From Quercus robur (taxonomy: Eukaryota; Streptophyta; Magnoliopsida; Fagales; Fagaceae): a stretch of DNA of 64,000 nucleotides. Below the pieces are notes generated by a model. It saw only the letters and a program-made list of their open reading frames with translations, was not told the origin of the DNA and ran no database searches. Of this stretch, positions 7,671 to 51,691 are shown piece after piece. The translations under genes and the position numbers were made by a program. Each line of letters begins with the position of its first letter. Position 1 is the first letter of the stretch. The DNA lies in the NCBI RefSeq assembly GCF_932294415.1, contig NC_065539.1:51789501-51853500 (forward strand), written 5' to 3'.

Positions 7671-7943
7671 TGTTAGTATGTATATTGTTGTCTAGTCCAA
7701 CGGGCTTAGGCGGCCTAGTGTCCTATATTACTTCATTCTATACATTCTTTGCCCTACACTCCTATTGCTTTGTACTACACACATACATGCCCGTATGAAA
7801 AAAGACAGTCTCATGTACAGTTACAGACATTAGAAGAATATAGAGATTATTCTCCCATACATCTCTCTCTCTCTAAATTATTTTATCAACAGGAGTTGTA
7901 TTGTTCTGTTGCATGTAATGGCATAACCTATTCAAAACTAACA
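7671..7943. mobile_element. Solo LTR, 273 bp
   Basis: Begins TGTTAGTATG and ends AAAACTAACA, so it has perfect TGTTAGT/ACTAACA-type inverted ends. Nearly matching 5-bp flanks (AGAGT at 7666-7670 and ACAGT at 7944-7948) would be the target duplication. No primer-binding site, internal domain or second copy follows, so this is the remainder left by LTR-LTR recombination. The superfamily cannot be decided from the LTR alone. Confidence 0.6.
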
Positions 7944-7988
7944 ACAGTACAGAATAGTTCATAAAAAAAAAAACAACAGTACAGAATA
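7940..7988 (+). mobile_element. Micro-retroinsertion: 15-bp A-tailed insert in a 17-bp target duplication
   Basis: The 17-bp word AACAACAGTACAGAATA occurs at 7940-7956 and again at 7972-7988. Between them is only GTTCATAAAAAAAAA. A perfect duplication around an A-tailed scrap is the mark of target-primed reverse transcription. The GTTCAT(n)A tail resembles the end of the LINE fragment at 13676. Confidence 0.7.
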
Positions 7989-8057
7989 TAGATCTAGTAT
8001 TTGGAACGTTTTTCACAGAACAGAATAAAGCAGACGTAGGTTCATAATTCAATATTC

Positions 8058-8058
<1 letters not shown>

Positions 8059-8129
<71 letters not shown>
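8059..8129. repeat. (GA)n microsatellite
   Basis: About 35 uninterrupted GA units. Confidence 0.98.
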
Positions 8130-8131
<2 letters not shown>

Positions 8132-8304
8132 TCAATACAAAAATGGAATACTTACCTTTTTTGCAATGAGATTTGATTTGGAGGCATGGAAACCGTTGAA
8201 GCACTCGTGGCAAGGGCGACCGATCACATTCATAATATCACGAACACTAGCTGAAAGCTCTCTCAGACAAATTAGGGGAGTGGGAGGACCTCTCTAAACA
8301 ATAA

Positions 8305-47684: not shown

Positions 47685-47734
47685 GGGCCCCTTTTGGTAT
47701 TTTTTTTTTGTTGAGAAAGGGCCCCTTTTGGTAT
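47685..47734 (-). mobile_element. Micro-retroinsertion in copy B with an empty site in copy A
   Basis: GGGCCCCTTTTGGTAT at 47685-47700 and 47719-47734 (perfect, 16 bp) flank nine T and GTTGAGAAA. Copy A has TTTGGGCCCTTTAGTCTGG at about 40694 with no duplication. Confidence 0.85.
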
Positions 47735-49199
47735 GGTTCAGCCCAATGAAACACTAATTTCATAGGACATGGTTTTATTTTAATGGGCCTGAGCCTTACA
47801 ACGTTTAGGCATAGGCCCAAATAATGGGATTTTATTTTTTTACTTTTTTGGAATAAAGGAATTTATTGAGAGGAAAAGCAAATCCCACTGGGACCAACTC
47901 CATTCTATACAGTCTAAAGACCCTTTTCTTTTTTTTTTTTTTGGTTGAGAAGATTACATCGTAAAGACTTAATTATACCATTTGAGACTCCACTTATAAA
48001 GTTTCTTATGGGCAAATAATTAAATTACCTTATATCAAAATTTACCTACACAAAAAGGACTTTATAGGTTCCTTGGCAGCGATGATAAAGAACAATTCAC
48101 AATAAAAAGTACACTATAATTTTATGGGCAAGACTTAGGTACAATACTTAGGTGTTGTTTCTTAGGTTTCCCTCTTAAGATTTTGTCATGTGGATTTTTT
48201 CTCATAAGATAAAAGTGTATTTTTTAATTAAGTAGCCACATGGCTGAATCTTAAGAGGGGAACCTAAGGAACAGTACTTAAGGTATTGTATCGAAGTTTT
48301 GTCCTAATTTTAAATATAAAAAAAGGGACAAAAATCCAAATAACACCAATTCAGTTTGGGTCAATTGTCATTTTCATTTATAAACTTTCATAATAATTAT
48401 TTTCACCTGTAAGGTTCACAATTATTGTCAAGTTGACCCTTTGGTCTATAAACTACAGTTATTTATTTTTTTTAAAAAAACCCTCTTATTACAAAAGAAA
48501 ATTTTAACATTTTACTAATTAAAATATAATTTAAAAAAAAAAGTAAAATCATCCACAGCTGACTCACAAGCCACTAAAAAACAATCAAATGTCGCATTTT
48601 AGGTTTCCAACATATTGCACAATATGTTGTTGCTAAACATACATTGAATGAATTTTAAGATGACGGAATGACATTTGATGCTTTTCTTAACATATATTGC
48701 ACAAACATGACATTTGATGTTTTCAATGATAGAATGAATTTTAAGATGATAGAAGCTGGATCCATTTGATGTATTTTTTTATATCAGAATTGTATTGATA
48801 TTCATTTGTGACAAAAGTAAGAAATTTATGTATAAGATTTTTACAAATTAAATGAAACTTCTTTTGTAATAAATTGAATAACAATACATCTTTGATAAAA
48901 AAAAAAAAAAAAAATACAACAACTGGAATTAGCCTCCATCATCTTAAAATATATTTTATCTTTGAAAACAACAAATGTCTTCTTCTTCTTCTTCTTCTTC
49001 TTCTTTCTCTCTCTCTCTCTCTCATGTTTTGGATGAACTTGCTTTAAAGCTTCTTTTTTAGTATTTCTCTAATTTCTATTTTGGTCCACATAATTTGGGG
49101 GTATATAGTCAAAAAGAGAGACAAATCAATGAACCATCTGAAGTGTATGTGTAATGAAAAACTGAAGGGGAAGGGAGTTTTTTTTTTTTTTTTTTTTTT

Positions 49200-49421
49200 T
49201 TGTAATAGCGGCAGTCGTAATGCAGATTTGGAAAATTTTCATAAGGGAGTGATTAGTCTATTGCAACAAAATTATTACAAGTTATTGCAACAAATAACAT
49301 ATTGATGCAATAAATTAATACTTTTATTCCTTATTACAACAAAAAAATGTTCACAAGGTAAATTAGTTCATATTGGCACTAAAGTTCCTTTTTGTTGCAA
49401 TATAGGTTTTTTCTTGTAGTG
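49200..49421. mobile_element. Terminus of a CACTA (En/Spm-type) transposon
   Basis: Ends TTTTTTCTTGTAGTG at 49407-49421, the complement of the standard CACTACAAGAAAA terminal repeat. The preceding 200 bp repeat TTGCAACAAA-like words in both orientations, as CACTA subterminal regions do. The opposite end (CACTAC...) was not found, so this is a remnant or its far border is obscured. Left edge approximate. Confidence 0.65.
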
Positions 49422-49992
49422 ATAAGTTATTATAAATATTTTTAAGTTTATGATTAATGTAGCATTAAATTCATATAAAATTCTCCTATTTATCTCTTTC
49501 TTTCTTAAATTAAAAAATATATATTAGACATTTTTTTTTTAAGGTGATTAGGACATGGGTTTAAGAGTTATTTTTGAATTGGGTAATGAATAAAAATTAA
49601 ATTTATAAACATATGTCTACTTTATAAATGATTAAAATCTTGTTTTATAATATGTTTCTTCTTCACAAATTAGGAGTTTTAATCAGTTAGGCAAAACTAT
49701 ATTTAGTTGGCTTAGTTCATAATATCTATTTATTTGTTAAGAGTACTTTCTTCATACATATATTTTTTATGATTTTTTTTTAAAATTTTTTTATTTAATA
49801 TCATGCTTACATGGGATTCATCGTCCCTTTTTTAATTTTTATCTTCATTTAATTATTTAACTCATCATATATATATCTGGTCCTAAAATCTATATATATA
49901 TATATATAATAATATCTAAAATCTGAAATGTAACATTTATTGTTATTATACTCCTATTAGGCCACATCATTCTAACGTTTCAGTCAACTTCG

Positions 49993-50045
49993 ATCTGTTC
50001 GGTCTATATATATATATTTTTTTTTTGAGAATCTGTTTGGTCTAT
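49993..50045 (-). mobile_element. Micro-retroinsertion: 23-bp insert in a 15-bp target duplication
   Basis: ATCTGTTCGGTCTAT (49993-50007) and ATCTGTTTGGTCTAT (50031-50045) flank ATATATATA, a T-run and GAGA. Confidence 0.65.
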
Positions 50046-51644
50046 TTTAGTCCATTCAATCCACTTTAGTCCATTCAATCCACTTTTGTCCATTCGATAT
50101 ACTTTAGTGATGCTTTAGGATAAGAGGTTTTTATAGAAAAAATAGCAACTTCATTAATAAGTATGGCACATTCTTAGCGTAATAATGGTAGATTTTTTTA
50201 TATTTATTTATATAATTACATTTTTCTTATATTATTAAAGTTTTGTATTTTTTTTTCTCTAATATAAGTGATGAACTGGAATTCATCCCGGTTGGGTCCA
50301 TATGGGCAAGCCATATTCACTCATGAGCTTGAGCAAAGTAGGTGAAACATGCTTGAAGAAAAATATGTTGAATCTTGATCACTTTAGTTGTTCTTTTTTG
50401 AAAATTTAAACACTTTTATGTTTAAGATGAATTATGAAGTCAAAAGATTGAATTGAATTTTAGGCAAAGTCAGAGAATGCAATTTATAATTTAGCCTAAA
50501 AAGAATTTACATGTTGACTCAAGTAAATAAAATCAAGCTCCTATTTGTTAACCAATCTCTTATTTACACAGTTATCTACGACTTTTTATTTACATAGTTA
50601 CACCGTTAAACAATCTTAAGTCATTGCTCAATATGTTGCTAAACATATACCGTAAACAAAAAAGCAACATTTGATGTTTTCATTGATAGAATGTATTTTA
50701 ATTAAGATGATGGAAGCTACTTCCATTTTATGAATCTTTATTTTTTATTTTTATTGGAATTGTATTTCTATTCAATCTATAAACTATTTAAATATAAGGG
50801 GAAAAATAAAGAGAGAATAAGGGAACGATTGGATAATTCCTTACCACCTGAAAGAGGTGGACTAGCATGTTTGAGAAAAAGGAAGGCGAAAATACACTTT
50901 TGGCCTAAAAACACGTCATTTGTTGTTTTTTTAAAGATAAGGACTCATATATCTGCCTTACGACATCTATAACTAAAGATGTAGTGTCCAATCCAAGGGA
51001 AGTTCCCAAAGCGGTTTATATGAATTTAACGGAACATCACACCTTAAAAGTTGTACTCTTATATCTTTATAGACGAGGTTGATCTTCATGTGTTTTGTTT
51101 GGTTTTGGTAGGCTAGGAATATTGGCACTATTGTTAAAATTACTGTTGATGCGGTTGTAATTTTGTCTGCTATTGGTTGCTGAAAATGGGAGTTAATCTC
51201 TAATGTTAGGGTTGTTGACCATGAAAAGAAGAGATATTTGAACTAAAAAAAAAAAATTATTAGTTGATTTTTATGGTGATTAAGATATGGGTTTTAAGAG
51301 TTTTTTTTTTTTTTAGAAGGAAGTTTTTTTGAATTTGGTAATGAATATAAAATAAATTTATAAACATATGTTTATTTTATAAATGATAACCATCTTGTTT
51401 TATAATAGGGAAACGTTAATGGATGCCTTAAGGGAATTGTTTTAGGAAATATTTTTAGGACTTTTTATTTGAAAAGGAAAAATAAACAATTAAGTTTTTG
51501 ATAGTTTTATATATTTCTCATGAAAGTAGTATCAAAACTATCATTAAATAGTTATCAACAAATGCCAAACTGGACCTTTTATAATATGTTTATACATATC
51601 TCTCTTCTTTACAGACTTGGAATACATTGTGCTCTATTTTCATG

Positions 51645-51691
51645 TAAAGCTAACAAATTTTTATTTTTAGAGAAACTATAAAGCTAACAAA
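51645..51691 (-). mobile_element. Micro-retroinsertion in copy B with an empty site in copy A
   Basis: TAAAGCTAACAAA at 51645-51657 and 51679-51691 (perfect) flank TTTTTATTTTTAGAGAAAC plus TA. Copy A reads TGTAAAGCTAACAAACTAG near 44994 with a single copy of the word. Confidence 0.85.

Follow-up and report, generated by a model that had tools for sequence, protein, structure and literature searches.

What process leaves an insert of only a few nucleotides and an oligo(A) run between two copies of its target? The question is raised by a 64,000-nucleotide stretch of oak (Quercus robur) DNA, hereafter the window (NCBI RefSeq assembly GCF_932294415.1, contig NC_065539.1, positions 51,789,501 to 51,853,500 of the forward strand), for which a preliminary description listed twelve such micro-inserts and ascribed them to target-primed reverse transcription (TPRT) by long interspersed nuclear elements (LINEs) that aborted once the tail had been copied. 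Three tests support this account: the polarity of the tails, the absence of the inserts from paralogous sites, and the resemblance of their non-tail bases to LINE 3' ends. The micro-inserts are very probably footprints of LINE TPRT that halted no more than ~10 nt beyond the poly(A), the choice of a LINE RNA over some other poly(A) RNA as template being the less certain half of this interpretation.

Structure and polarity of the micro-inserts

All twelve inserts occur where they had been placed, to within 1 nt (an ambiguity due to homopolymers), and their flanking target-site duplications (TSDs) are 13-18 bp long, eight of them perfect and four with one mismatch. A thirteenth member, with a TSD of 10 bp, surfaced in an alignment of paralogues. 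When the tail is oriented as A, all 13 share the layout TSD–X–A(n)–TSD, in which X stands for 4-10 non-tail nucleotides, the A-tails number 5-25 residues (one then continuing as (TA)n), and the whole insert measures 12-31 bp. The 13 TSDs (10-18 bp, where roughly 7-20 bp would be expected of TPRT) total 193 bp with 4 mismatches, although sites were picked for having one. The A-run is not flush with the downstream TSD at two sites, i.e., 50008, with its (TA)n, and 40425, where TA follows the A-run. The members are as follows.

7957-7971 (unit 7940..7988), forward strand: GTTCAT+A9, 17-bp TSDs
21111-21131 (unit 21096..21146), forward strand: GTTTACC+A14-15, 15-bp TSDs
21411-21422 (unit 21393..21440), reverse strand: CCCC+A8, 18-bp TSDs with 1 mismatch
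23044-23062 (unit 23028..23078), forward strand: CCAATC+A13-14, 16-bp TSDs
30655-30685 (unit 30640..30700), reverse strand: TCTCTC+A25, 15-bp TSDs
32292-32305 (unit 32274..32323), forward strand: TGTTCAT+A7, 18-bp TSDs
36461-36473 (unit 36448..36486), forward strand: TTTAT+A8, 13-bp TSDs
40425-40443 (unit 40415..40453), reverse strand: the thirteenth member, TTGATGCCC+A8TA, 10-bp TSDs; paralogue empty at ~47445
44825-44851/2 (unit 44812..44864), reverse strand: (T)TTCTTTCT+A19, 13-bp TSDs with 1 mismatch; paralogue empty at ~51518
45299-45310 (unit 45285..45324), forward strand: TCTTCTT+A5, 14-bp TSDs with 1 mismatch; in the duplication scan at score 10 only
47701-47718 (unit 47685..47734), reverse strand: TTTCTCAAC+A9, 16-bp TSDs; paralogue empty at ~40698
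50008-50030 (unit 49993..50045), reverse strand: TCTC+A10+(TA)n, 15-bp TSDs with 1 mismatch
51658-51678 (unit 51645..51691), reverse strand: TAGTTTCTCT+A5TA5, 13-bp TSDs; paralogue empty at ~44995

Our main scan covered the window for gapped direct duplications (gap 8-45, scored as the length less 3 for each mismatch, with low-complexity pairs excluded), and polarity was called as predicted if an A-run of at least 5 lay flush with the 3' copy or a T-run flush with the 5' copy. At a score of at least 12, nine duplications had the predicted polarity, one had its mirror image and 21 had neither; the corresponding counts were 9, 0 and 15 at a score of at least 13, and 11, 2 and 49 at a score of at least 10. 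Order-2 and order-5 Markov sequences (100 simulations each) yielded at score 12 an average of 0.03 predicted, 0.01 mirror and about 0.5 neither, with a maximum of 1 for either class containing a run. Cruder, exact-word scans were less lopsided, with predicted-to-mirror ratios of 10:1 for 12-mers and 11:3 for 10-mers. Polarity is the feature that separates the tailed class from other gapped duplications.

Because all nine sites of predicted polarity at score 12 were already on the list, the scan confirms the set and does not extend it; the listed sites 44825, 45299 and 50008 fall outside these nine. One candidate among the 11 at score 10, at 1355-1393 (10-bp TSD, T5), was dropped as too weak.

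Empty paralogous sites and the bases before the tail

The window contains a diverged, tandem-like segmental duplication (40298-47333 versus 47333-54637, with ~74-91% identity over the aligned parts), which doubles as an internal control for insertions. The comparison of empty sites drew on the following blocks.

40298..45639, no strand assigned: blocks paralogous to parts of 47333-51905

With paralogues standing in for alleles, all three listed sites that these blocks cover proved to lack both the insert and the second target copy, as expected for insertions. Opposite 47701 (at ~40698), 44825 (at ~51518) and 51658 (at ~44995) there is a single target copy, sometimes slightly diverged, and no X-A(n). 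The insert at 40425 is a gap against its empty partner at ~47445, this site having been discovered through that comparison; the remaining nine inserts fall outside the aligned paralogous blocks. Since the inserts with a paralogue are divided two and two between the duplicate copies, they are most simply viewed as younger than the duplication.

A census of gaps in 11 pairs of paralogous blocks (3,524 columns of alignment, counting gaps within blocks and excluding those between blocks, i.e., larger elements) returned 14 gaps of at least 7 bp. Six were at least 20 bp long, and four of these six are tailed micro-inserts; the other two adjoin each other within a single complex region (47875-47951). 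Compared with its paralogue near 40852-40869, this region carries a complex insertion that includes T14 and an imperfect repeat of the TAAAGAC beside it, and it is possibly another retro-insertion or a composite. Also missing from the paralogue (at 41035) is a self-inverted element of ~180 bp at 48126-48304 that resembles a miniature inverted-repeat transposable element.

The window holds three LINEs whose 3' ends could be compared with X.

13678..14668, reverse strand: LINE a, 3' part, with RNase H-like and zf-RVT domains; 3' end ...CTTGTTCATC+A7
18483..19807, reverse strand: LINE b, 3' part, with an RNase H-like domain; 3' end ...GTTTCTTTCTC+A12; 16-bp TSD around ~1.84 kb
25193..30580, forward strand: LINE c, with DUF4283 and zinc knuckle, endonuclease and RNase H-like domains in interrupted open reading frames; 3' end ...CTTTCTTATC+A-rich tail

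The three ends share an order of AATAAAA, a pyrimidine-rich stretch ending in TC, and the A-tail; no convincing TSD was found for LINE a or LINE c. The preliminary description had noted that the non-tail bases resemble LINE 3' ends, and this holds up statistically: right-aligned to the three ends, the set of X scores 51, as against 30.4 ± 4.1 for shuffled X, and 0 of 1000 shuffles reach the observed value. Taken singly, the ends are matched as well by 0, 11 and 27 of 1000 shuffles, and after removal of the three best X the shuffles reach the LINE-end match in 10 of 1000. Sets of three sequences preceding A-runs elsewhere never reach 51 (0/1000; mean 11.8). The C+T content of X is 82%, compared with 53% for equal lengths before other A-runs (0/5000), and for nine of the 13 X a LINE end gives a higher score than a SINE-like one (SINE, short interspersed nuclear element). 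Against five SINE-like 3' ends taken from the window, X match no better than their shuffles (355/1000).

An earlier version of this last test, which used three SINE-like ends (979/1000), was not a fair comparison, since the window has other SINE-like copies with pyrimidine-rich ends, and it has been superseded by the test with five. We likewise make no use of the frequency of LINE-like motifs before A-runs of at least 7 (6/14 at micro-inserts, 10/158 elsewhere), since the motifs were derived from the inserts themselves. Matches to the end of LINE b coincide with listed inserts at 44831-44852, 30668-30686, 47701-47719 and 50017-50031, and another (18509-18530) lies inside LINE b. Those at 17422-17440 and 16911-16930 were rejected as new members, being SINE-like ends, and that at 51302-51322 was not added, being at the edge of a paralogous block.

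Neither conventional class accommodates the inserts. A LINE copy would carry recognizable element sequence, and here X amounts to 4-10 nt that match LINE 3' ends statistically; a SINE copy would have a body of ~100-300 bp with an RNA polymerase III promoter, and the inserts, in which promoter boxes were not searched for, span 12-31 bp.

Proposed aborted reverse transcription and its rivals

The enzyme, template and abortion point that we infer would act in the following manner. A LINE endonuclease would nick the target, and a LINE-like RNA would pair at the nick through its poly(A) tail; the reverse transcriptase would then copy this tail and a further 4-10 nt from the 3' end of the RNA before stopping; and a cut of the second strand 10-18 bp away, followed by filling of the gap, would yield TSD-X-A(n)-TSD. 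Endonuclease and RNase H-like domains are present in the LINEs of the window, which counts in favor of this scheme, and the proposed enzyme is presumably of the L1 type, to judge by domain order.

Several results weigh against this scheme. The reverse transcriptase match of LINE c is under the Pfam cut-off. Scans that tolerate mismatches are less lopsided, with predicted-to-mirror ratios of 18:8 (12-mers, 1 mismatch) and of 14:7 and 21:9 (14-mers, 1 and 2 mismatches). Polarity is also weaker when the longest run of at least 6 is simply assigned to its nearest end (11:2, p = 0.011; p = 0.011-0.035 over six settings). The 13 sites display neither a clear TT/AAAA motif nor an upstream consensus, the boundary being ambiguous with respect to the A-tail; A occupies TSD position +1 in 10 of 13 and position +2 in 8 of 13, where the start of the TSD is subject to the same ambiguity. 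The boundaries of X were set by hand, and the leading T of X at 44825 was included in the tests even though it may belong to the TSD. All of the LINE ends come from this window, two of the three having first been picked out in the preliminary description, and because X is only 4-10 nt long it is impossible to name a single template.

Two sites run the wrong way under the nearest-end rule, and one of them is 50008, which also has no flush run in the main scan because of its (TA)n extension. A candidate at 22530 (10-bp TSD, T6), among the 11 of predicted polarity under this rule, was dropped as too weak. At 31268-31317 an 11-bp duplication encloses an insert that has T9 close to its 3' side, i.e., mirror polarity under the same rule; poly(T) 3' ends are among the features that the available text of a maize survey reports for some plant SINEs (PMC2774510).

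Much of the scheme would be preserved if LINE proteins had acted in trans on polyadenylated mRNAs or SINE RNAs, such that the inserts were ultra-truncated processed pseudogenes or SINEs. The same structure is predicted, and 4 of the 13 X (CCCC, TTGATGCCC, TCTCTC and TCTTCTT) are closer to a SINE-like than to a LINE end, with CCCC and TTGATGCCC scoring just 0-1 against LINE ends, i.e., no resemblance. X ends in C or T in all 13 cases, as do the bases at 75% of other positions before A-runs, and such an ending is also in keeping with plant mRNA cleavage sites in general. However, X as a set surpasses its shuffles when compared with LINE ends and fails to do so with the SINE-like ends, and we regard action in trans as unlikely.

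Repair of double-strand breaks, in which offset nicks are filled in, could also generate a duplication with A/T-rich filler between its copies. Vaughn and Bennetzen reportedly described patch-mediated duplications of this kind in rice, which resemble the micro-inserts in having a short direct duplication around new sequence and are said to differ in that no tail polarity or LINE-end bases would be expected. Gapped duplications free of A-runs are indeed common in the window (21 versus ~0.5 simulated at score 12, e.g., those at 8672, 16040 and 53723), and this excess, which also counts against the TPRT reading, implies that other duplication processes are at work here; some of these duplications are diverged tandem arrays. 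Break repair nevertheless provides no reason for the A-run of the filler to lie mostly against the same copy (9:1, or 11:2 under the looser nearest-end rule), nor for LINE-like, pyrimidine-rich bases on its other side, and it is an improbable source of the tailed class.

Slippage or tandem duplication at older homopolymers, the alternative by which the preliminary description expected its own reading to be refuted, has ample raw material in the 330 A-runs and 344 T-runs of at least 5 in the window. At the four sites with a paralogue, however, the partner has neither the homopolymer nor a second target copy (one of the four having been found by that comparison), which speaks against slippage at those four; as an explanation of the class it is scarcely credible.

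Size gap, known systems and other features

Under a rule requiring a TSD score of at least 11 and an A-run of at least 6 in inserts of up to 600 bp, which sees 8 small inserts rather than all 13, those of predicted polarity comprise 8 at up to 31 bp and 3 at 131-200 bp, and none at 32-130 or 201-600 bp. The mirror control produced four in all, two of them at 32-60 bp, and at score 13 there were 8 small inserts, 1 larger and 1 mirror. Though the numbers are small, such a gap would not be expected from simple, gradual 5' truncation. A separate, long-range scan for tailed inserts of up to 9 kb gave 26 matches of predicted polarity and 11 mirror matches; because many of these join paralogous copies, we used only LINE b and the SINE-sized inserts, including the following, which served for size comparison.

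11232..11451, forward strand: SINE-sized, A-tailed insert of ~188 bp with a 16-bp TSD

Tail-only insertions are not without precedent in mammals, where single cases are known; such a density, together with the size gap, looks new in a plant. In human NF1 exon 25, an L1-endonuclease insertion consisting of poly(T)/poly(A) alone, with the TSD dupTTTCTT, was ascribed tentatively by its authors to severe truncation of an Alu, an L1 or a processed pseudogene (PMC3219598). The oak inserts are like it in being essentially a tail with a TSD, and differ in scale: as described in the accessible text of that study, the NF1 case, 1 of 18 insertions, carries about 120 T residues and a TSD of 6 bp, whereas the 64 kb of the oak window contain 13, whose tails number 5-25 residues and whose TSDs span 10-18 bp. 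A 44-bp insertion in canine RPGRIP1 similarly has an A29 tract between copies of a 15-bp duplication, but it is a single mutation for which the accessible text notes no non-tail bases, the term 'LINE-1' being absent from the main text (PMC3520932).

In plants, a close parallel is furnished by 5'-truncated retroposons such as Sadhu of Arabidopsis, partial copies of which have been called consistent with abortive retrotransposition; like the oak inserts, they have poly(A), clean empty sites and adenine-first TSDs (7-16 bp in A. thaliana, 8-18 bp in A. lyrata), and unlike them they keep a recognizable body, which here is at most ~10 nt (PMC2848041, as far as its accessible text extends). Abortive retrotransposition has been discussed for human L1 (PMC2912911, in part), and the available portion of a study of human retrotransposition structures presents no tail-only class (PMC12016303). 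The maize survey, in its available text, took the final 30 bases of LINE consensus sequences as anchors and needed to tell SINEs apart from LINEs that were severely truncated (PMC2774510). Among the titles and abstract openings of the matches listed from the open-licence literature, we recognized no plant report of dense tail-only footprints.

The density in this window is 13 per 64 kb, or ~200 per Mb. We offer tentatively the possibility that LINE reverse transcription in this plant passes through a phase of abortive initiation, with many integrations ending within ~10 nt beyond the tail and few or no stops between there and a full SINE or long LINE; tail-only footprints might then outnumber recognizable LINE copies and provide most insertions of 20-60 bp across the genome. 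If so, they would form a genome-scale record of failed TPRT. LINE activity is usually counted from copies with element sequence, and were footprints generally this dense, most attempts at integration would have been missed. Failed retrotransposition would then account for a sizeable share of the short indels, new microsatellite seeds (A-runs and (TA)n) and small duplications of plant genomes. Should the size gap hold (up to 31 bp, then SINE-sized or larger), the reverse transcriptase would appear to fail mostly at the start and to be processive later.

The insert at 11232-11451 is distinct from the SINE-like family of the window, whose related copies lie at 16900-17200, 17400-17620, 20530-20730 and 59380-59540 and have A-tails and variable, often pyrimidine-rich 3' ends. 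Elsewhere, the window includes part of a lipoxygenase gene (a Pfam match) and an open reading frame encoding photosystem I PsaD, at 4947-5741 and 12143-12736. In protein searches with PsaD and the lipoxygenase the top matches reached 99% and 96%, and the best of those assigned to a species are from eudicots (79-90%), which marks the host as a eudicot. Rfam returned no match at gathering scores.

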